Made by a program: the position numbers and the translations under genes. Of a stretch of 31,339 nt of DNA, positions 127-31,339 are shown piece by piece. Below the pieces are notes generated by a model. That model was not told the origin of the DNA. It saw nothing but the letters and a program-made list of their open reading frames with translations, and searched no databases. Origin of the DNA: a virus. The stretch lies in the IMG/VR virus record IMGVR_UViG_3300025121_000112, positions 1 to 31,339 of that record, one strand, 5' to 3'. Every line of letters starts with the position of its first letter. Within the stretch, counting starts at the first letter, position 1.

Positions 127-612
127 CCGGGCTTGTCCAAAACACTCCCGGACGGACAGGGCAACTTCTACGCCGACGGCACGGCAGCCGAGGCACATTT
201 AAACTGGCAGGCGTTCATGGCTCTCGTTGCCTATTGCATGAGCCTGCAACAGACCGCCAAAGCCGAGGACTTCGGAATCATCGCCCACTATCTGACTTTC
301 GGTAACATGATTACCCTGCGGTCGGATTCATACAAGGCTATCTATGACAGCTCGACAAGCATCTGGCGGTTCCTCGGAATCCCCATTTACTCAACGGCCT
401 ACTCAACCAACTTCGGGGCAGCCTCCAGACCTGCCGCCTTCGTCTATCACAAGGACGCTGGCGCTATTGTCTGGGATGAGCCGCAGCTAATGGGCGACGG
501 CCCGATGTGGCATTGGGATGCCTGCTTAAAGTGGACAACCATTTGCCCCTATGGGCATGCGCTGCATAACGCCGCGCTACTTGGCGAACTTCTCAACCTC
601 GCCGCTCTCTAA
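1..612 (+). CDS. Major capsid protein, C-terminal part (continues from 30965-31339 across the junction)
   Basis: Reading frame 1 is open from the first base to the stop at 610-612 and is in phase with the open frame starting at 30965. Joined across the terminal repeat, the protein is 286 residues: 83 from the right end plus 203 here. Function is inferred from position, since it follows portal and scaffold and precedes the neck genes, and from a size normal for small HK97-fold coat proteins. No short diagnostic motif is visible. The C-terminal half is rich in aromatic residues and small helices. An internal ATG at 46 is not the true start. Being the most abundant virion protein, it has a dedicated structured leader (30838-30957). 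Confidence 0.8.
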   Translation, partial: KPSESKSFFTKPENIVRISENHADAFVYGATGSMIADMYAATPGLSKTLPDGQGNFYADGTAAEAHLNWQAFMALVAYCMSLQQTAKAEDFGIIAHYLTFGNMITLRSDSYKAIYDSSTSIWRFLGIPIYSTAYSTNFGAASRPAAFVYHKDAGAIVWDEPQLMGDGPMWHWDACLKWTTICPYGHALHNAALLGELLNLAAL

Positions 613-2040: not shown

Positions 2041-2645
2041 TGCCGCGAGAACAGAAAATAGTTTTAAAGGGCTGGGATCGTCCTCTGGTTGTGGATTGGG
2101 ACTTCCAGACGGGATTGCTCAGGCTTGAAATTCAGCGACTGGCACCAGGGCGTGGTAGCGGTAACTTAAAAGAAGCGTTTGAGCACTCCGATACGGCGGT
2201 CATAAACGAGGAAGGGAATGTAATCGATATCACCGTGGGGAAGCAACATAAGGCGTGGCCTTATGCGAAAATTCAGGAACACGGAGGAACCATACCGGCA
2301 TTCGATATCAGGAAGGCGCAACGTGCTTTTAAAAGTACATATCTGGCAATGGTACGCGGACGCAAAATCAGCGCGGGGCGATACGGCAGATGGTTCCGGC
2401 GGTCGTCCGTCGGCGGATATAAACCAGTTATGGTTGCATGGATCGGCGGCATGAAAAGATTCTTTACCAAGCGCGGCCCGATTGTAATCTTGGGTTCGCA
2501 TTACGTCGAGCGGGGCGTCCATAACTGGTGGCGCAAATTGTGCGGGGCATCAAGTGGCGTCGGTGGCGGTGCTCCGGTAGGCGGGGCAACGCGGACGGTC
2601 TTCTGGTCTAAGGAACATTACAGCCGGGGGATAGATAAAAGATGA
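2040..2645 (+). CDS. HK97-gp10-like neck / tail-completion protein, copy 1
   Basis: A 201-residue protein. The segment from about residue 40, GSGNLKEAF..., through YAKIQEHGGTI (about 76-86) to GSHYVERGV (about 151-159) follows the usual order of HK97-gp10-like and Mu-gpG-like virion morphogenesis proteins: an N-terminal 'TGxLRxSF'-type turn, a YAxIQExGG motif, and a C-terminal HYxxxA-type helix. Family members act at the neck during head-tail joining. The same three elements occur in the next gene, so the two look like tandem paralogs. The C-terminal 45 residues are Gly-rich and basic. The start overlaps the preceding stop by one base and the stop overlaps the next gene (ATGAGC at 2642). Confidence 0.6.
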   Translation: MPREQKIVLKGWDRPLVVDWDFQTGLLRLEIQRLAPGRGSGNLKEAFEHSDTAVINEEGNVIDITVGKQHKAWPYAKIQEHGGTIPAFDIRKAQRAFKSTYLAMVRGRKISAGRYGRWFRRSSVGGYKPVMVAWIGGMKRFFTKRGPIVILGSHYVERGVHNWWRKLCGASSGVGGGAPVGGATRTVFWSKEHYSRGIDKR

Positions 2646-3223
2646 GCAAACTTTCCGACATCATGGCTGCTACCGGCATGACCCGCGAACAGATACGCAG
2701 GGCGGTTGCGACAGGCTACGGGAGATTCAACCCTGACACATACGCACGTCTTAAATCCGAAGCCGACACCCGCCTTGCTAATTTATTCCAGGCGATGACT
2801 GAGCGGAGCCGTGGCTTAATCGCGCCGCTTGAAACGCAAGAGGACGCGGACAAACTTCGACACTTAATCCAAGACTTTGCGCCGGTCGATACGGGCGCAC
2901 TCAGGGATAGCTTCGACGATCCGCGCACGGTCGTTGTACAACCGGACGGGAATGTGATGATCGACTTCTCCCTGCCCTATGCGCGTATTCAGGACTTGGG
3001 CGGCACGATCCATCGGACGAGCAGCACCGGAAAATCTTACACGATCCGCATACCGGCGCAGCATTACGTCCAAAAGGCTGTGACCGCGTACAATGCGTCT
3101 AGAGACGCGGAGGATGTTCCTCTGCAAGTTATATCGGAAGGCGACATAGGTATCGGCATAGCTGGCCTGATAGCGCGTGGCATGGCTTTCATACGGTCGG
3201 TGAACCCGATAGGAGCGGCATAA
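2642..3223 (+). CDS. HK97-gp10-like neck protein, copy 2
   Basis: A 193-residue protein with a clearer gp10 signature: APVDTGALRDSF (about 80-91), LPYARIQDLGGTI (about 110-122), and IPAQHYVQKAV (about 138-148). Such proteins (HK97 gp10 / Mu gpG class) complete the head-tail interface. An N-terminal helical extension of about 75 residues precedes the core and a Gly/Ile-rich tail follows it. Overlaps of four bases upstream and one base downstream (TAATG) indicate coupled translation. With two gp10-like genes in a row, one may serve the usual neck role and the other an additional joint; which is which cannot be told. Confidence 0.7.
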   Translation: MSKLSDIMAATGMTREQIRRAVATGYGRFNPDTYARLKSEADTRLANLFQAMTERSRGLIAPLETQEDADKLRHLIQDFAPVDTGALRDSFDDPRTVVVQPDGNVMIDFSLPYARIQDLGGTIHRTSSTGKSYTIRIPAQHYVQKAVTAYNASRDAEDVPLQVISEGDIGIGIAGLIARGMAFIRSVNPIGAA

Positions 3224-7797: not shown

Positions 7798-10154
7798 CAG
7801 TCACATTCAGTAATCCCACCTATAACCTCAATGCCGATCCCGCTCTGGGGAAAACCGCCACGGACATCCCGGTCGAGACATTTACAAAGCAACACGCCTT
7901 CGATTCGATCTCGACCGCCACGCTTTACATCAGGACGGATGTACTTTCGATTTACAGCATCGAAACCGCCGACCTGACAAACGCCTGTCAACTCAACAGC
8001 ACGGTTACGGTTGTCGAAGGCGCGGCTTACCACTTCCGGGGATACGTCCACAGCAAGCCGCTTTACAAGACTTTTGAGGAAGGGAATTATCTGGTTGTCG
8101 AGTGCATGGGATGGGATGGGATTCTCGGACAGGCCTTGTGCGTGGATGCTTCCGGAAATGACATCTGGACGCTGGAATCAAGTAAGTATGCGCTGACAAA
8201 CATGCCCTTGCAGGCGACGGCTGCTTACGGCACCTTTCAGGGCAGCACGCTTTGGCCTGACCCGGACGATGCTACGGGGTTAGAGTGTTACGTCGCGGGC
8301 GCGAATGATGTCTTGTACACGGACGGAGTAGGCACGGTGCTATCGGCTGTTGCCACAACGATTATTTTAACGAGCACGACAAAGGGCTTTGTCCCTCGCG
8401 GCTGGATTAAGATTGATTCGGAATGGATATATTTTGACGGATATGACAACTCAAATGCTGACACAAAATACCGCTTGTATAACTGCGTCCGTGGTCAGTT
8501 GGGTACGGCGGCGGCTACTCATGCGGAGGGCGTCACGGTCTACGAAAAGCTCGGCAAGCAAATCGCTCCGGCGGCACTCGACCTCCAAAACGACCCGCTT
8601 GGCGGCACGGCCTGGAAAACGGTGAGGCGCGGGGCTGAATTCGACGTCCACGACGCGCTGGGATGCTTCGTGTTACGCGATCCGGCGGCAGGCACGTATC
8701 GAGCCACTTGCTCGGTTTACGACGAGGACAGCTCACTTGACGCTGCCTCAGTACCTATTTCGTTGAACGATGTGGTGACAAAGATAATGACCGGCACGGC
8801 TGCCAACTTTGGGCCGGGGTTCGTCGCCGGTGATTTAGATTTAAGCAGCACGACCGCCGCCTTGAAAGTTAACCGCTACGATTACGACCCGCAGAAAAAA
8901 CAGCAATACGCCTTCGATGCGATTCAGGAGCTTCTTGCCGCCGTGGGTTTGGAGAATGAGATTAAGTTTTGGTACAAGCATTCGACCGGGAAATTCCGTC
9001 TGACAGTTTTGGCAAATGACACGTCCAGTTTCACGCTTCCGAACACGTCGCGGGTGGAGCATGAGTTCACGCTTGCGGATGTCTATTCAGCGATCCGGGT
9101 TGAATTCAGCGATGACCAGAACCTTAACCGCGCCTGCAAAACGTATTCATGGCATCAGGCCGCCACAGACAGCGGCACAAGTCCAACTGCTTACTGGGGC
9201 GTTGAAAAAGGCGGCGCGTCGTGGGGATGGGATTCCCATACGACCGTTACGGCTGCCGGTAACGATGATATGCAGTGGACTTGCGACGGGAAAAACGACA
9301 GCAAGGTCGGGGCGATCTGGACGAATGAGAATCCCGGCGCGTCTATTAACTTCGCTGATTTCTTTTTTGGCACAGGCACGACACCGCCGTCAATTGACCT
9401 TGATAAAATCAAACTCGCGGTCGGAAATTACAGGGCAATCGAGGGATGGAATCGCAGCACCGATAACACGACCTTTACTTGGGTTGTGCGCGTATACGGT
9501 TGTGACAATTACGACACTACCAGCGCGGCGACACGGAACGCTTCTACCTGGGTTGACCTCGGCTTTTCGATGGAAGGGACACCGGCTGCCGAAGGTTCGT
9601 GGGTCGAAGGTGAAGCCCTTGCCTTTGCCAAGCGTCGTGTAAACGCGATCCGGCTTGTGTGGGATTACATGCCCGGCCCGAAAACATCAGGGGAATATTA
9701 TTATGCAGTGCTGCATGACATCGAAATCCTCGGCAATTTAATCAAATACGCTCGTTGTCAACTGGCTTCCACAGGCGCGGGCGATGCGGCAAAGTTAGTG
9801 GCACCCGCGAGTTATGAAAAGCTCCGGGGTGGCGTGAAGGCGTCGACCGGGGTAGCAGGCTGCCAGCGCGTGAAGAGTGTCAAACTTGGTGCCGCGTCCG
9901 GTCCGGCTGCGCAAAGCATGGCGCGGATACTTTTGCTGACTTACTTGCGGATGTCCGAGATGCGCCGGTACAGTTATCAGGGCGTACTGCCCGGCACACC
10001 GGAGCTTGGCATTACGATTGCCTGCGATGAGGACAACGACACGGTCGTCGATTATACCGGCGTGCTCCGGGAGTATTCGTTTGCAATCGGCCCGGTGGGG
10101 ATTAGTGAAGCGACGGGTACGATCCTATCGACGGTACAGGCGGTGATCGACTAA
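7785..10154 (+). CDS. Baseplate hub / tail-associated protein
   Basis: A 789-residue protein, the largest of the tail tip genes. Its N-terminal region (about 1-170) reads like a hub domain, with many strands and a segment on binding and displacement (YHFRGYVHSKPLYKTFEEGN). Residues about 180-265 form a separate module with GWIKIDSEWIYFDGYDNS and YNCVRGQLGTAAATHAEG, a pattern I recognise as an inserted domain in other phage tail proteins. A further strand-rich region around 440-640 contains many Trp and may contact the cell surface. The C-terminal 130 residues return to a hub-like fold. No peptidase or lysozyme motif is visible. The start overlaps the zinc-ribbon gene by 13 bases. Confidence 0.6.
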   Translation: MPQITVTFSNPTYNLNADPALGKTATDIPVETFTKQHAFDSISTATLYIRTDVLSIYSIETADLTNACQLNSTVTVVEGAAYHFRGYVHSKPLYKTFEEGNYLVVECMGWDGILGQALCVDASGNDIWTLESSKYALTNMPLQATAAYGTFQGSTLWPDPDDATGLECYVAGANDVLYTDGVGTVLSAVATTIILTSTTKGFVPRGWIKIDSEWIYFDGYDNSNADTKYRLYNCVRGQLGTAAATHAEGVTVYEKLGKQIAPAALDLQNDPLGGTAWKTVRRGAEFDVHDALGCFVLRDPAAGTYRATCSVYDEDSSLDAASVPISLNDVVTKIMTGTAANFGPGFVAGDLDLSSTTAALKVNRYDYDPQKKQQYAFDAIQELLAAVGLENEIKFWYKHSTGKFRLTVLANDTSSFTLPNTSRVEHEFTLADVYSAIRVEFSDDQNLNRACKTYSWHQAATDSGTSPTAYWGVEKGGASWGWDSHTTVTAAGNDDMQWTCDGKNDSKVGAIWTNENPGASINFADFFFGTGTTPPSIDLDKIKLAVGNYRAIEGWNRSTDNTTFTWVVRVYGCDNYDTTSAATRNASTWVDLGFSMEGTPAAEGSWVEGEALAFAKRRVNAIRLVWDYMPGPKTSGEYYYAVLHDIEILGNLIKYARCQLASTGAGDAAKLVAPASYEKLRGGVKASTGVAGCQRVKSVKLGAASGPAAQSMARILLLTYLRMSEMRRYSYQGVLPGTPELGITIACDEDNDTVVDYTGVLREYSFAIGPVGISEATGTILSTVQAVID

Positions 10155-12556: not shown

Positions 12557-12569
12557 TCATGCACCGCCC
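12553..12569. repeat. 17-bp direct repeat, far side of the methyltransferase-endonuclease module
   Basis: TCATTCATGCACCGCCC occurs here and at 14148-14164. In both places, read leftward, it encodes Ala-Val-His-Glu-stop at the end of a reading frame: the overlapping frame 12553-13701 here, and gene 14148-14519 there. The copies enclose the methyltransferase and homing endonuclease genes. Confidence 0.75.
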
Positions 12570-13701
12570 AATCGATTCCATGCTTCTCTAACCACTCGTG
12601 AAACCTGCCCGTTACCAATGGCTTTAAGTCGGTCCACCCGATAGGCCACCCCATGAGCCACTCGACCCACGAAGGATTTAGCTGTCCCCCTATCACTGTC
12701 TGTAAATCCTTCCCCCCCTGTCCATGCTCTCCCGGACTGTTCGCACATTGCCTTTTCGGTGTCGGGTAAGCTATTCGAGTCGCAAGGTGTTGCGCTTTCT
12801 CCGGCGGTCTGCCCGTCGTTCTCGGAAGCCCGAACTCCCCGTCCGATGCTTTCGGAGTCGGGTAAGTCTGCCGGGTCGATGTCCCACCATGTGCAACGGC
12901 ATTTGGCAGGCAGTCCCCCGGTGCATGTATCCCCCGCTGACTCATGCCCTTGTAATCGCGGGACTTCGGGGACGGCCATCTGACTTGCATCGATAGCGGA
13001 GTTCCGCCCTGTTTGTATTTCGTGTTCCGACCACCCGTGTCCCCACTGGTCGGGGTTGTCCACATTATTTGTTCTGCCAGACTCCCCGGTACATAATGCC
13101 GTCCTATCGATTCCCGATATGCTGTCCGCTTTTCTACTCTGTCCTCTCCCCCGGCTATTTGTTGTACAGTCGGAGTCAAATAAACGAATCCACAATCGTT
13201 TCCGTCTGTGCGGTGCTCCGACATCATCAGCCCCGATAACTCCCCACCGGCAATCATACCCCAGTTCGGAAATATCTCCAAAGATGCGCCCCATGTATCC
13301 TGAAACAAGCAGCCCTGGAACGTTCTCCAAGAGCGCGTATCGAGGTCGTACTTCGCCAATGATACGGATTGTTTCAGGCCACATGTTCCGTTCGTCGTCG
13401 GCTCCCCGTCGCTTGCCTGCGATCGAGAATGGTTGACACGGAAAACCCGCAGAGATGCAATCCACGATTCCACGCCACGGCTTTCCGTCGAAGGTTCGCA
13501 CATCATCCCAGATTGGGAAGGCTTCGAGGATACCTTCTTCTTGTCGCCGTAACAGGACTTCTCGGCAATACGGTTCGATTTCAACTGCGCACACGATTCG
13601 GTGTCCAAGCAGTTTTGCTCCGAGAATTCCTCCACCAGCACCAGCGAAGAGTGCAAGTTCTCTAATTCCGCTATCATTGTTAGGGATAAATACCATGTCA
13701 T
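12553..13701 (-). CDS. Overlapping reading frame across the methyltransferase gene (382 codons)
   Basis: A second frame on the same strand covers the methyltransferase gene from end to end. Its ATG at 13701 has the better ribosome-site spacing (AAGGGG, five bases) and overlaps the endonuclease stop (ATGA). The product has family-like features: SLAKYDLDTRSWRTFQGCLF (about 114-133), FPNWGMIAGGEL (about 144-155), repeated [WY]-P-[TS]-P motifs with nearby Asp (about 242, 280, 312), and LNPSWVEWLMGWPIGWTDLK (341-360). From memory, these motifs recur in phage proteins linked to C5 methyltransferases. Its C-terminal codons share phase with the 14148 repeat copy. Either this is a true overlapping gene or a striking constraint on the other frame. 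Confidence 0.55.
   Translation of the reverse strand: MTWYLSLTMIAELENLHSSLVLVEEFSEQNCLDTESCAQLKSNRIAEKSCYGDKKKVSSKPSQSGMMCEPSTESRGVESWIASLRVFRVNHSRSQASDGEPTTNGTCGLKQSVSLAKYDLDTRSWRTFQGCLFQDTWGASLEIFPNWGMIAGGELSGLMMSEHRTDGNDCGFVYLTPTVQQIAGGEDRVEKRTAYRESIGRHYVPGSLAEQIMWTTPTSGDTGGRNTKYKQGGTPLSMQVRWPSPKSRDYKGMSQRGIHAPGDCLPNAVAHGGTSTRQTYPTPKASDGEFGLPRTTGRPPEKAQHLATRIAYPTPKRQCANSPGEHGQGGKDLQTVIGGQLNPSWVEWLMGWPIGWTDLKPLVTGRFHEWLEKHGIDWAVHE
12557..13696 (-). CDS. DNA (cytosine-5) methyltransferase
   Basis: A 379-residue protein. Motifs in order: I, LALFAGAGGGILG (14-26), SAM binding; IV, GFPCQPFS (84-91) with catalytic Cys87; VI, LLENVPG (122-128); VIII, HRRKR (163-167); and X near the end, AIGNGQV (about 359-365). 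All keys are present, so it should transfer a methyl group to C5 of cytosine. The recognition domain lies between about 175 and 330 and is fully overlapped by a second reading frame, which may explain its low hydrophobicity and repeated polar segments. The start at 13696 lies one base after the endonuclease stop, 10 bases after AAGGGG. Likely role: protecting phage DNA from host nucleases. Confidence 0.9.
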   Translation of the reverse strand: MVFIPNNDSGIRELALFAGAGGGILGAKLLGHRIVCAVEIEPYCREVLLRRQEEGILEAFPIWDDVRTFDGKPWRGIVDCISAGFPCQPFSIAGKRRGADDERNMWPETIRIIGEVRPRYALLENVPGLLVSGYMGRIFGDISELGYDCRWGVIGADDVGAPHRRKRLWIRLFDSDCTTNSRGRGQSRKADSISGIDRTALCTGESGRTNNVDNPDQWGHGWSEHEIQTGRNSAIDASQMAVPEVPRLQGHESAGDTCTGGLPAKCRCTWWDIDPADLPDSESIGRGVRASENDGQTAGESATPCDSNSLPDTEKAMCEQSGRAWTGGEGFTDSDRGTAKSFVGRVAHGVAYRVDRLKAIGNGQVSRVVREAWNRLGGA

Positions 13702-14102
13702 AATTTCCCCTTAACTTTTTGCAATTCAATCCAGAGTTTTTCTCGTTTAGCCCAAATTTGTGGATTAAGACGATGACCGGGTTTTCCAATAAGTTTTCGA
13801 ATTTTTAGGGCAAGATCAATTTGTCTGCGTTTAACTATGCTATATTTTCGAATTGCTTTCAGGAATAATTCTGCTTCTTTACCGTGAATTCTCCATCGAT
13901 GACAGCCAGATTTAGTCATACTATCACATGTAGAACCACCAAACTTAGCATGAATTAAATCTAGTGGAGTTCTATCTTGCTGTCCTAGTTGAACACTAAG
14001 AAAATGCTCAATAAAATTTCCGCGCTGTCGTCTTATAACAGAAACGGAACCTTCTCCATCAAAAAACCCCGCTACCCATTGATTTGAAATTTTATAATTC
14101 AT
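13698..14102 (-). CDS. LAGLIDADG homing endonuclease, free-standing
   Basis: A 134-residue protein when started at ATG 14102. WVAGFFDGEGS (about 9-19) is the LAGLIDADG helix with its catalytic acidic residue. One motif is present, so it should act as a homodimer. The gene is visibly more A+T-rich than its neighbours, a sign of recent entry. A consensus promoter (14109-14137) ends six bases before this ATG, so the transcript should be leaderless. An upstream ATG at 14123 lies inside the promoter spacer and is unlikely. It sits directly before the methyltransferase gene, between 17-bp repeats. Confidence 0.85.
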   Translation of the reverse strand: MNYKISNQWVAGFFDGEGSVSVIRRQRGNFIEHFLSVQLGQQDRTPLDLIHAKFGGSTCDSMTKSGCHRWRIHGKEAELFLKAIRKYSIVKRRQIDLALKIRKLIGKPGHRLNPQIWAKREKLWIELQKVKGKL

Positions 14103-14108
14103 AAGATA

Positions 14109-14137
14109 ATGATAGCACATCATTAATGTATTGTCAA
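14109..14137 (-). promoter_or_regulatory. Promoter of the homing endonuclease gene
   Basis: On the minus strand TTGACA (14137-14132) is followed after 17 bases by TATCAT (14114-14109). The predicted start of transcription coincides with or lies within a base or two of the ATG at 14102, and no ribosome site is present, so leaderless translation is expected. Confidence 0.7.
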
Positions 14138-25008: not shown

Positions 25009-25037
25009 ATTCTAAAAGAATAATTGTATTTTGTCAA
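25009..25037 (-). promoter_or_regulatory. Promoter of the HTH regulator gene
   Basis: On the minus strand TTGACA (25037-25032), 17 bases, TAGAAT (25014-25009). Its -35 box is separated by nine bases from the -35 box of the rightward promoter (25047), giving a TGTCAA-N9-TTGACA palindrome. This is a plausible operator for the divergent switch. Confidence 0.75.
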
Positions 25038-25046
25038 GCCGAAAAT

Positions 25047-25075
25047 TTGACAAACGGGAAATCACTGGTTATAAT
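25047..25075 (+). promoter_or_regulatory. Consensus rightward promoter P1
   Basis: TTGACA (25047-25052), 17 bases, TATAAT (25070-25075): a perfect sigma-70 promoter. Transcription should start near 25082 and meet a terminator at 25129-25165, so its immediate product is a short RNA. It shares the 11-base TTGACAAACGG with P2. Confidence 0.85.
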
Positions 25076-25081
25076 CCTGAG

Positions 25082-25165
25082 TGTGAGTAAGTTGCAGTAC
25101 CCCCATTTAATCCTCCTCTTTGAGAAATGCCCCGGCGACATGGATGTTTCCGGGGCTACTTTTTT
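25082..25165 (+). ncRNA. Candidate small RNA (about 84 nt)
   Basis: Defined by P1 upstream and an intrinsic terminator downstream. No useful reading frame is present. The body holds a C/T-rich stretch with CCTCCT (25112-25117), complementary to a ribosome-binding site, as seen in small RNAs that block translation. Targets cannot be read; the purine-rich ribosome sites of many phage or host genes could pair with it. Confidence 0.5.
25129..25165 (+). terminator. Intrinsic terminator after P1
   Basis: GCCCCGG (25129-25135) pairs with CCGGGGC (25150-25156), and six T (25160-25165) follow closely. Rightward orientation. Confidence 0.8.
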
Positions 25166-25168
25166 CGC

Positions 25169-25197
25169 TTGACAAACGGATAAAATTAGTTTAAGAT
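25169..25197 (+). promoter_or_regulatory. Rightward promoter P2
   Basis: TTGACA (25169-25174), 17 bases, TAAGAT (25192-25197), four of six matches at the -10. TTGACAAACGG is shared with P1, suggesting a common regulator. Transcription would start near 25203 and enter the attenuator at 25210. Confidence 0.65.
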
Positions 25198-25209
25198 TCC
25201 CCCAGCGTT

Positions 25210-25264
25210 CTGTGAGACGCCCGAATAATACCCGAAGCCCCGTCTCACAGCGGGGTTCTTTTTT
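25210..25264 (+). terminator. Attenuator in the replication-gene leader (alternative stems)
   Basis: CCCCG (25238-25242) with CGGGG (25251-25255), extended by AAG/TT pairs and followed by CTTTTTT to 25264, is an intrinsic terminator. CTGTGAGACG (25210-25219) can instead pair with CGTCTCACAG (25241-25250), 10 exact pairs, using up the terminator's 5' arm and loop. The two structures exclude each other, as in transcription attenuation. What tips the balance is unknown. Confidence 0.7.
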
Positions 25265-26736: not shown

Positions 26737-26818
26737 AAACCAAGCGAGTCCGCCACGGCGGGTTCAGAATCATCCCAGCTTGACTGGTCAGGCGATTAGG
26801 CGACGGGTTATCAGATTA

Positions 26819-26890
26819 GCCGGGAGACTGCAAACCAAGAACTCAATGAACCTCTTGGGGCTTAATGCATGCAGTCTCCCGGCCTTTTTT
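26819..26890 (+). terminator. Strong intrinsic terminator of the rightward early operon
   Basis: GCCGGGAGACTGCA (26819-26832) pairs exactly with TGCAGTCTCCCGGC (26870-26883), 14 pairs, followed by C and six T. The loop itself contains a second hairpin (CCAAGA 26835-26840 with TCTTGG 26853-26858). It should end early transcription before the late genes. Confidence 0.85.
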
Positions 26891-26911
26891 CTTATCGCAG
26901 TCTCTGAAGGT

Positions 26912-26938
26912 TTGACATCCTGACTAATGTGATATAAT
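26912..26938 (+). promoter_or_regulatory. Late promoter with extended -10
   Basis: TTGACA (26912-26917) and TGA-TATAAT (26930-26938) are perfect boxes with an extended -10; the spacer is 15 bases, short of the usual 17. It starts near 26945 and reads the terminase genes and onward. Because it is host-sigma-70-like, late timing must come from other control, such as the nearby winged-helix protein or the short spacer. Confidence 0.75.
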
Positions 26939-26946
26939 AATTGCGA

Positions 26947-27027: not shown

Positions 27028-27621
27028 ATGCCTGACTCAACTGAAACCAGACGCCGCGAAATTGCCAGACTCGATTTTGAGTCAGCATTCACCATGACCG
27101 GAGCGCAACACGCTGCCAAGTATGAAGTGTCGCAGTCCCAGATAAGCCAGGACAGGCATTCAGACACCTACGCGGATGAACTATCCAAGTGCGACGGCGG
27201 ACGCCTTAATCGCGTTAACACGAAGTCATGGGTCTTCATTGAAGCTGCTATCGACATGGGGATTGAATACATGACTGCCGACAAAATCACCCTTGCTCCC
27301 AAAGGCGTCCTATATCGGGCGATGGACTGCATCCGGCTTGTCCTGGAACACAGCGGCGAAATAAAACCACCTGGCGACGAAACCGGCTCCTCTCTAATCG
27401 ACCGTGTTTTCATGCCCGCGAGTGCGCTTGAAATAGAGAATGCACGGCTGAATCAGCGCATCGCCATAATCGAGGCGCGGCTGTCGCGGTTGAACGGGAT
27501 CGGCGAGGACGTGCTCAAGGACTTGCCGCCTGCCGACGATAAATACATCGCGCCGGATGAATCGGTATGGGAGAGCAAGCAGGCATACGAGGATCACACA
27601 GGCCGATGCGCTACCCCGTAA
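27028..27621 (+). CDS. Terminase small subunit
   Basis: A 197-residue protein just before the large subunit gene. The N-terminal helix-turn-helix (ESAFTMTGAQHAAKYEVSQS, about 16-35) is in the usual place for a DNA-recognising small terminase. Central helices and a coiled-coil-like region (ALEIENARLNQRIAIIEARL, about 133-152) suit oligomerisation. No ribosome site is seen before ATG 27028; a TTG at 27022 is in frame. The role in choosing DNA for packaging is inferred from position and HTH. Confidence 0.65.
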   Translation: MPDSTETRRREIARLDFESAFTMTGAQHAAKYEVSQSQISQDRHSDTYADELSKCDGGRLNRVNTKSWVFIEAAIDMGIEYMTADKITLAPKGVLYRAMDCIRLVLEHSGEIKPPGDETGSSLIDRVFMPASALEIENARLNQRIAIIEARLSRLNGIGEDVLKDLPPADDKYIAPDESVWESKQAYEDHTGRCATP

Positions 27622-28916
27622 CAATCGATGCCGTCGAGCGCGTCCTTAAACTCCTCGGCAAGGAATGGCGCGGTGAATGGCAACGAGAGGCAGCCCACGC
27701 CTGCGTCACATACCCGGAGGTCGTAATCCAGGGGCCGCGACAGATTTTCGGTAAGACCTTTATCGTGTCCATCACCGGCGCAACGTCGCTTCTCGCAGGC
27801 AACACCCACGCTATCGGTTTCCCGACGCTGACACAATCGACACGCATCCTTGCGCGTGAGACCAGCTTTAACGTGGACAAGCTCGGCGGTTACATTCCCG
27901 GCGGTTTCAAGAAGGTCGTAGACACCATCACAGAGCGCATGTGGCGGCTCAAGGACAACGCTGATTACCTTCCCCGGCTCTTGGCTTTATCGACAAACGA
28001 AATCTCACGCAGCAAGCCGGAAGGCTACACGGTGGACACCCTCGCGATTGATGAGTCACACCGTTCAACACCGGCCATGCTTGCGATCTTCTCCCCGTTC
28101 CTCAACGTCGCCCGGCTGGAAGGGCGCGATCACATCTGGTACTCTGGCGTTGGCGGTCACAAGTCCTCACTCATCGAGGAGCGCAAGACACATCCAAACG
28201 TAAAGGTTATCCGATATCCCGCATCTGTCATCATGGAAATGGCACCGGAATGGAAGCCGATATTTGAAACGGAACGCGCCTCACTATCCGACTGGCAGTG
28301 GCGACAGCACTACGAATGCCTGCCTGCCACTGAAGGTATGCGGCTAATGTATCCGGAAGTACCGGGCGCAATCGACATGCAGCAGGAGATTGCAAAGAAC
28401 ATCGCCCCTAAGATATTTTTTGGCATTGACGTGGGCAAGGTTGTGGACAGCACGGTCGTCAAGGTAATCAGTGTGGTGTACGGTATCCGAAATAACGAAA
28501 TGAAAAAGCTGGTCAACGAGCTTGAATCCTTCGAGATTACCGGCACGAATTACGAGGATCAAGCCCTCGCGGTTTACAACTGGATTAACGGTCGATACTT
28601 CTGGCGGCCTGAAAATATCGTCGTAGAATTGAACGGCGTCGGGCAGGCGTTCTACGACATCCTATGCAAGGTGTTCGCCCGGCGTTTACGCGGCATCTAC
28701 ACCACGGCGGAACTCAAGGAACAATTCTGGCATGAGACAAGCGCGGCGATTCGTGAGCAGAGATTCGGGGTAAAAAATGCGGAAGCCCGTGCACATTATG
28801 AAAGTCTGATGTATAATGTGCGCGTGGAAGATGGTAAATTAGAATTCGAGCACAGCGACCATTGGATGGCTTTATGCATGGCATGGATCGCGATGCAGAC
28901 GGTGGAGGTGCTATAA
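27606..28916 (+). CDS. Terminase large subunit
   Basis: A 436-residue protein when started at 27606 (ATG at 27567 is an alternative). IQGPRQIFGKT (41-51) is the adenine/Walker A region, DTLAIDES (144-151) Walker B with D149-E150, and FFGIDVGKVVDST (271-283), VVELNG and the C-terminal AHYESLMYNVRVEDGKL fit the RNase-H-like nuclease domain with D275 and D281. It drives ATP-powered packaging and cuts the DNA. The start overlaps the small subunit and the stop overlaps the next gene (TAATG). Confidence 0.85.
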   Translation: MRYPVTIDAVERVLKLLGKEWRGEWQREAAHACVTYPEVVIQGPRQIFGKTFIVSITGATSLLAGNTHAIGFPTLTQSTRILARETSFNVDKLGGYIPGGFKKVVDTITERMWRLKDNADYLPRLLALSTNEISRSKPEGYTVDTLAIDESHRSTPAMLAIFSPFLNVARLEGRDHIWYSGVGGHKSSLIEERKTHPNVKVIRYPASVIMEMAPEWKPIFETERASLSDWQWRQHYECLPATEGMRLMYPEVPGAIDMQQEIAKNIAPKIFFGIDVGKVVDSTVVKVISVVYGIRNNEMKKLVNELESFEITGTNYEDQALAVYNWINGRYFWRPENIVVELNGVGQAFYDILCKVFARRLRGIYTTAELKEQFWHETSAAIREQRFGVKNAEARAHYESLMYNVRVEDGKLEFEHSDHWMALCMAWIAMQTVEVL

Positions 28917-30270: not shown

Positions 30271-30295
30271 CAACTCATAAAAAGTGTGGTATACG
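30267..30295 (+). promoter_or_regulatory. Promoter of the scaffold-capsid unit
   Basis: TTGACA (30267-30272), 17 bases, TGG-TATACG with extended -10 (30287-30295). Transcription should begin at or within a base or two of the scaffold ATG at 30302; no ribosome site precedes it, so a leaderless message is expected. It would give extra capsid mRNA beyond the main late promoter. Confidence 0.7.
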
Positions 30296-30301
30296 AAAAC
30301 C

Positions 30302-30835
30302 ATGACAGAAGAGACACCGACACCAACCCCGACACCGCAACCTGCGCCAACTCCCGCGCCCGCCCCTGCGCCGCCTGTAGTAAGCGATGAAGCCCGAAAA
30401 CAAGCCGGGTACTATGCAAGGCACCCCGATGAATTCGAGGCCGTCCTGAGCGAACTGGAAGCGTCTGGGCAGGTGGCAATTCGCGCAGAGGTGAACAATC
30501 TTAGGCGCGAGATAACGATCCGTGACGCGATTACCGATCACGGACTGACCCGCGCCGATGCGGATTTCATCCGAGGGAACACACCGGAAGAAATAAACGC
30601 GAGCGCGGCCAAACTCAAAGCAAGGCTGGAAGCGGCCACGCCTTCACCGACACTGGGCGACAAACCTCCACTGGCAGCTCCGGCGGACGTCCCCACACCT
30701 AAACCTGCACCCACTGAACCGCCGCCGCTACCGGAGCATCGCGGTGGGCGCACATCGATAGAGCAGGCGGAAGCCGATTTACTCGAAGCCTGTGCGAATA
30801 CAAATTGGACTGAATTGCTCAATCCAAGACGTTAA
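30302..30835 (+). CDS. Putative capsid scaffolding protein
   Basis: A 177-residue protein. The first 25 residues are a Pro/Thr/Ala repeat (TPTPTPQPAPTPAPAPAP), then a charged helical core (about 30-115), a second Pro-rich stretch (PTPKPAPTEPPPLPEH) and a short helical end. Position directly before the capsid gene, helix-rich sequence and acidic/Pro composition match scaffold proteins. The ATG at 30302 coincides with the predicted transcription start. Confidence 0.65.
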   Translation: MTEETPTPTPTPQPAPTPAPAPAPPVVSDEARKQAGYYARHPDEFEAVLSELEASGQVAIRAEVNNLRREITIRDAITDHGLTRADADFIRGNTPEEINASAAKLKARLEAATPSPTLGDKPPLAAPADVPTPKPAPTEPPPLPEHRGGRTSIEQAEADLLEACANTNWTELLNPRR

Positions 30836-30837
30836 AC

Positions 30838-30957
30838 GCTGCCGACTTGCGCCAATAGTCGAGAAGCAGCCGCCCTGATGCTGGGCGAGACCTCTTACCG
30901 GCCATGTGCCGAGACGAACCCCGTAAACGCGGGAGAAAAATAATCCCCTAAGAGGTC
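30838..30957 (+). promoter_or_regulatory. Structured RNA leader of the capsid gene with hidden ribosome site
   Basis: Possible stems: GCTGC/GCAGC (30838-30842, 30866-30870) with inner GACT/AGTC (30844-30847, 30857-30860); GCCC/GGGC (30872-30875, 30883-30886); an outer stem GACCTCTTA/TAAGAGGTC (30889-30897, 30949-30957) enclosing CGGC/GCCG (30899-30902, 30908-30911) and CCCG/CGGG (30920-30923, 30930-30933). The last arm of the outer stem holds the capsid ribosome site AAGAGG, nine bases before ATG 30965. GGGA/TCCC (30931-30934, 30944-30947) competes with the last inner stem. Confidence 0.65.
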
Positions 30958-30964
30958 AAATATC

Positions 30965-31339
30965 ATGGCATTCGCAATGCCCATCGCTTATAGCCGATTA
31001 ACGCATCAAAAGATCATCGGCTCGAAAGGATTCGTGAATTCATTCGCGAATAACGTTGTAGTCCCCGACGGGCCGCACACCGGCAATGTGACCTGTACAG
31101 TCCTGAGTGCCGCGACACCTACTACCATCGCCGAGGGTACAGGCGTTACCAACGCAGCCGTGACGGTTGCGACCGCTCTCACGTTCGTCGATGGTCAGGT
31201 GACAATGACCCTGAAGCCTTCAGTGTCAAAATCGTTTTTCACTAAGCCGGAAAACATCGTGCGGATTTCGGAGAACCATGCCGATGCGTTTGTATACGGC
31301 GCGACTGGCAGCATGATCGCCGACATGTACGCCGCGACA
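30965..31339 (+). CDS. Major capsid protein, N-terminal part (continues at 1-612)
   Basis: ATG at 30965 with AGAGG nine bases upstream. The frame runs to the end of the window and continues in phase after the circular junction (position 31214 equals position 1) to the stop at 612, 286 residues in all. The N-terminal 80 residues are strand-rich (Val/Thr). At 31224 T gives Val where position 11 gives Glu. Function is assigned by position after the scaffold and by size. Confidence 0.8.
   Translation, partial: MAFAMPIAYSRLTHQKIIGSKGFVNSFANNVVVPDGPHTGNVTCTVLSAATPTTIAEGTGVTNAAVTVATALTFVDGQVTMTLKPSVSKSFFTKPENIVRISENHADAFVYGATGSMIADMYAAT
31214..31339. repeat. Terminal redundancy, right copy
   Basis: Repeats 1-126 with one mismatch (31224). 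See the left copy. Confidence 0.9.

Follow-up and report, generated by a model that had tools for sequence, protein, structure and literature searches.

A conserved RNA fold that may lock translation of the presumed capsid gene in an environmental phage

The DNA analyzed here, referred to as the window, is the whole 31,339-nt sequence of the IMG/VR virus record IMGVR_UViG_3300025121_000112, which derives from an environmental phage. Its two ends (positions 1-126 and 31214-31339) repeat the same 126 bases apart from one mismatch, which makes a circular or terminally redundant genome probable. The overlap falls inside the presumed capsid gene, where the mismatch (GAG/GTG) encodes either Glu or Val at residue 87; both the related phage described below and an otherwise identical contig carry Glu. 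The genes of interest are arranged in the order terminase-like gene (PHROG terminase match, E 8e-7), small ORF, an ORF of 351 aa that occupies the portal position and matches no family, scaffold gene, structured leader, presumed capsid gene, and further head and tail genes. The putative scaffold gene, on the plus strand like all features of the leader region described here, spans 30302-30835 (ATG at 30302, with a GTG at 30284 as another possible start). It matches PHROG 233 (head scaffolding, E 5e-6) and shows weak similarity (35% identity over 81 aa, E 0.09) to the scaffold protein annotated in Streptomyces phage phiHau3, where the annotated capsid gene comes directly after the scaffold gene.

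The presumed major capsid gene starts 129 nt beyond the end of the scaffold gene and occupies 30965-31339, continuing at window positions 127-612 when the contig is read as a circle. Its identity is presumed from synteny only, i.e., from its place after the weakly matched scaffold gene. The protein returned no significant match in PDB, Pfam, PHROG, or NCBIfam and no similarity to the phiHau3 capsid, and its AlphaFold model (pLDDT 30) was useless for assigning a fold. An in-frame start further upstream was ruled out, given the UAA stop at 30941-30943 and no start codon between that stop and the ATG. A hairpin with the stem GGCAUU/AAUGCC (30967-30981) lies at the very start of the gene.

We searched viral, genome, phage, and plasmid collections for further leaders. 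Besides an identical one (IMGVR_3300025000_002736), a single distinct leader (IMGVR_3300031949_000126, at L006:3916-4045) was obtained, from what we call the relative. Queries of IMG/VR with the capsid, the terminase (single and aligned), the portal-position gene, gene 704, and two leader patterns all led to the same two records only. None of the GenBank phages matched the capsid, portal-position, tail, or terminase proteins, and no plasmid matched the capsid. A Pseudomonas locus retrieved in the genome scan was discarded as a chance match, with none of the phage genes present.

Outside the leader, several differences between the two phages were observed. The terminase-like proteins share about 55% identity overall, and the N-terminal part of the gene (window 27605-28275) hardly resembles the relative at the DNA level, while its flanks are roughly 80-85% identical; this pattern likely reflects recombination. 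The neck-like gene encodes 193 aa in the window (2642-3223) and 463 aa in the relative (L006:7057-8448), i.e., about 270 extra residues on the N-terminal side. The window also carries a LAGLIDADG-endonuclease-like ORF (13698-14123) next to a cytosine-C5 methylase-like ORF (12557-13789), and the Pfam match of the latter spans the first half of the profile only.

The leader itself (30838-30964, 127 bases) folds with a minimum free energy of -47.0 kcal/mol, compared with -30.5 +/- 3.3 for shuffled sequences (z -5.0), and none of the 200 shuffles reached so low a value. When both strands of the window were scanned, this z fell in the lowest 0.4% among 977 stretches, and similarly low values occurred elsewhere, for example, at a terminator-like hairpin near 26817. 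The leader fold is confirmed. From the 5' end, it comprises arm A (30838-30870), with an outer stem (A-outer, 30838-30842/30866-30870) and an inner stem (A-inner, 30843-30847/30857-30861), and hairpin B (30871-30887; stem 30871-30875/30883-30887). These are followed by a three-way junction (30889-30957) closed by a 9-pair stem (30889-30897/30949-30957). Enclosed within the junction are hairpin C (30899-30911; stem CGGC/GCCG, 30899-30902/30908-30911), hairpin D (30920-30933; stem CCCGU/GCGGG, 30920-30924/30929-30933), and an unpaired A-rich linker, AGAAAAAUAAUCCCC (30934-30948), of which no further copy was found in the window. The 3' strand of the closing stem (30949-30957) includes the Shine-Dalgarno (SD) sequence AAGAGGU. 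A first-pass annotation of the locus had described five small stems and a 9-pair outer stem in 120 bases; all of these stems appear in the minimum free energy fold, but the 9-pair stem closes the last arm only and does not span all 120 bases. The annotation had named no described family with such an architecture. Rfam covariance models (riboswitches, ribozymes, and leaders among them) gave no match to the leader, either at the gathering threshold or at E<=5.

Comparison with the relative shows which parts of the fold are kept. The outer stem, whose loss from close relatives had been proposed as grounds for refutation, is retained as an SD stem of 7 pairs, together with hairpins C and D and the A-inner stem of the first 5' hairpin. 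The linker is identical in both phages, and the whole interval 30928-30967 shows zero changes, whereas fourfold sites of the neighboring coding DNA differ at 0.23-0.35. Within the 69-nt SD domain, all seven substitutions are confined to unpaired bases (p 0.004 when each is treated as an independent event, 0.10 when the five adjacent loop changes are treated as a single one). The loop of hairpin C differs at all five bases around an intact CGGC/GCCG stem, and the SD stem has lost one base at its inner end. In the two-sequence consensus fold, column shuffles gave the SD domain a z of -3.3 to -3.5 (rank 12-14 of 1172 windows), with a weaker signal on the opposite strand (z -2.2). A-outer, on the other hand, is not kept in place, the sequence of hairpin B is replaced, and the 5' half of the leader has a conserved-fold z of -0.04. 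The five-stem architecture, which the first-pass annotation had regarded as a unit, is therefore not what the comparison points to; these observations support the 3' three-way junction as the conserved element. Two sequences were judged too few to justify a covariance model.

It could be argued that conservation here concerns DNA or primary sequence, and that the fold arose by chance and has no regulatory role. The two distinct leaders show no substitution at a paired base and offer no compensatory pair, i.e., two sequences without covariation; the U-G closing pair of hairpin D is the sole pair that favors the RNA strand; the relative's full leader, folded alone, reaches a z of only -1.8; and high opening costs also occur at several other starts in the window. 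Against this reading, both the leader fold of the window and the sequestration in the two phages exceed shuffled sequences, and substitutions avoid the stems. We consider such a chance fold improbable, and the SD-sequestering fold is probably under constraint.

The consequence of the fold for the ribosome site was then assessed by computation. The core of the SD, GAGGU, sits 8 nt ahead of the capsid AUG, and its predicted pairing probability in the window, computed with 80 to 600 bases of upstream context, remains above 0.99 with up to 400 nt and above 0.98 at 600 nt; in the relative, it is about 0.87. The ribosome site thus lies within the last arm, as had been noted, in front of a gene assigned to the capsid by synteny. 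Opening the stretch from SD to AUG would cost 13.4 kcal/mol in the window and 10.5 kcal/mol in the relative. The same computation for known capsid genes gave 3.7 kcal/mol for T7 g10, 5.0 for lambda E, 5.1 for P22 g5, 3.6 for HK97 g5, and 3.5 for T4 g23, figures that serve as a guide only, since these phages differ in G+C content. When the sequence upstream of the SD was shuffled, the opening cost fell to 5.8 +/- 1.4 kcal/mol in the window (0 of 300 shuffles reached 13.4) and to 6.3 +/- 1.7 kcal/mol in the relative (8 of 300 reached 10.5). Among 18 gene starts tested in the window, that of the capsid gene is one of the costliest, with those at 10154 (15.7) and 704 (12.7) being comparable, and 6% of the SD-like AUGs in the window reach 13.4 kcal/mol. 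An RNA thermometer was dismissed, as SD pairing is nearly unchanged from 10 to 65 C. We also searched upstream for anti-sequester segments (at least 6 bases able to pair with the SD stem's 5' strand) and found none in either phage.

On these grounds, we propose that 30889-30957 is a conserved cis-acting translational lock on the presumed capsid gene, of the type known from T4 gene e and I-TevI, and we assign this reading a probability of about 0.5. On a long late transcript, the capsid SD would be held in the 7-9 pair helix that closes the three-way junction, and capsid initiation would stay low until the 5' strand, GACCUCUUA, is removed. In silico, opening costs about 5 kcal/mol once this strand is absent, which is the level of well-translated capsid genes. 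If the lock operates in the cell, it is presumably opened by an event at the invariant unpaired linker or 5' of it, most likely cleavage or shortening of the transcript, or else a ribosome that occupies the leader. Capsid output would then probably be delayed, or its level set, with respect to the genes that precede it. A regulatory role of the leader is plausible from the computations and the two sequences compared. Such a strong block would be odd for what is expected to be the most abundant phage protein, unless an opener exists.

The T4 genes e, soc, 49, and I-TevI provide the closest counterparts, being regulated through sequestration of the SD and/or AUG in an intramolecular helix (PMC3014915, PMC2988022). 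For gene e and I-TevI, long transcripts are blocked, and late ones that start within the helix are translated (PMC3014915, PMC2988022). As in those leaders, removal of the 5' strand frees the SD, here in silico. The T4 elements, however, are stem-loops on lysis, homing-endonuclease, and other genes, whereas the present one is a three-way junction that precedes a presumed capsid gene; furthermore, e and I-TevI have documented late promoters at the 5' strand, while our search for sigma-70-like sequences revealed no recognizable promoter here. The T7 gene 9-gene 10 leader likewise forms a regulatory gap between scaffold and capsid genes, but its SD is accessible (3.7 kcal/mol) and the gap contains promoter phi10. 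In the open-access literature, we did not find a structured leader of a tailed-phage capsid gene described, a negative that carries little weight.

The T4 precedent suggests one way in which the lock might be opened, namely, that a promoter or an RNase cut between 30898 and 30949 yields a shorter, well-translated mRNA that lacks the 5' strand, as for T4 gene e. In silico, transcripts with 5' ends past 30893 have an opening cost of 4-5.6 kcal/mol, and the invariant A-rich unpaired linker, which contains AATAAT, would make a suitable endonuclease target or -10 element. The late promoters that free e and I-TevI among the T4 genes e, soc, 49, and I-TevI (PMC3014915, PMC2988022) and the placement of T7 phi10 between scaffold and capsid also accord with it. 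Even so, neither phage's leader contains a sigma-70-like promoter, although other promoters of the phage match the consensus at 10-12 of 12 positions, and the proteins scanned included no phage sigma factor. Cleavage within the A-rich linker, or a promoter specific to the phage, is a possible opener, but we regard this specific route as doubtful.

Promoters were recognizable elsewhere in the window. A TTGACA-18-AATAAT promoter at 26912, ahead of the late genes, is one of those close to the consensus and is kept in the relative (L004:4934-4963). It lies past a long inverted repeat, CCGGGAGACTGC...GCAGTCTCCCGG, which is followed by TTTTTT; this terminator-like repeat was missed by the pattern scan because its loop is long. 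The interval 26817-26941 is likely the start of the late operon. In addition, the interval 25009-25257 has consensus sigma-70 promoters in both directions (25047 on the plus strand and 25037 on the minus strand) and a terminator-like hairpin at 25236-25257, and is an apparent early control region.

A ribosome could also act on the leader. The first-pass annotation had suggested that scaffold translation might unfold the upstream part of the structure; however, a ribosome terminating at the scaffold stop (30833-30835) covers RNA only to about 30848, and the stop lies 53 nt before the SD stem. With this footprint short of the SD stem, simple scaffold-capsid coupling fails in the model, and blocking the footprint indeed leaves the SD opening cost at 12.9 kcal/mol. 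A candidate leader ORF (30878-30943; 21 codons, MLGETSYRPCAETNPVNAGEK) ends with a UAA that lies in the linker, 21 nt upstream of the capsid ATG, and we weighed whether ribosomes on its first half might hold the 5' strand open and so permit capsid initiation. The relative has a 20-codon ORF that ends at the same UAA, and both AUGs stand about 10 nt before the SD stem despite otherwise diverged sequence. When a ribosome footprint with its P-site within 30878-30908 was blocked in the model, the SD opening cost dropped from ~12.5 to ~5.2 kcal/mol. Nonetheless, neither AUG is preceded by an SD, substitutions show no third-codon-position bias, the peptide is not conserved, and by our own estimate an in-frame AUG would occur there by chance in roughly 10% of cases, so that we hold coupling through this ORF to be quite unlikely. 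The more specific proposal that the three-way-junction leader, opened by short-ORF translation, is a timed or ratio-setting scaffold/capsid switch in a tailed phage is less probable still. A second short ORF (30904-30951) was dismissed, its counterpart in the relative having no start codon.

The position of the leader between scaffold and capsid also invites an explanation by autoregulation, in which binding of the capsid or scaffold protein would stabilize or open the junction. The invariant unpaired linker would be a candidate binding site, and there is precedent in T4 gp32, gp43, and RegA, which control translation by binding at initiation regions (PMC3014915). The targets of these proteins, like the RNA-phage coat operators (MS2 type), share with the present leader a structured initiation region as a possible protein target. 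Here, nothing specific speaks against it beyond the lack of conservation in the hairpin loops, which are the usual contact points; we consider autoregulation very unlikely.

Finally, a strong hairpin lies between the capsid gene and gene 704 (661-692), and it is the best conserved fold of the two-phage comparison (z -6.8), with one compensatory pair (G-C in the window, A-U in the relative). It is very stable, and its 3' side adjoins the weak SD of gene 704. In HK97, a putative terminator is annotated at the corresponding place, between gene 5 and gene 6; the resemblance is confined to the 3' side, where a hairpin comes right behind the capsid gene, and unlike the HK97 element, the hairpin here has no U-run behind it. 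The leader fold and this hairpin might therefore bracket the capsid cistron as mRNA-stability elements that protect or process the transcript, with SD pairing being incidental. The conservation of 661-692 and the HK97 annotation speak for this view, but it does not account for the location of the SD inside a helix or for the retention of the SD stem in particular, and we deem it rather unlikely.

Returning to the proposed lock, its significance would lie in the assembly of the phage head, for which tailed phages require correct amounts of scaffold and capsid protein. Should the leader be merely stable, it would be an ordinary matter. A conserved lock on the capsid start, if true, would amount to RNA-level control of head assembly, and would extend to a capsid gene a mechanism already described for lysis and homing-endonuclease genes.
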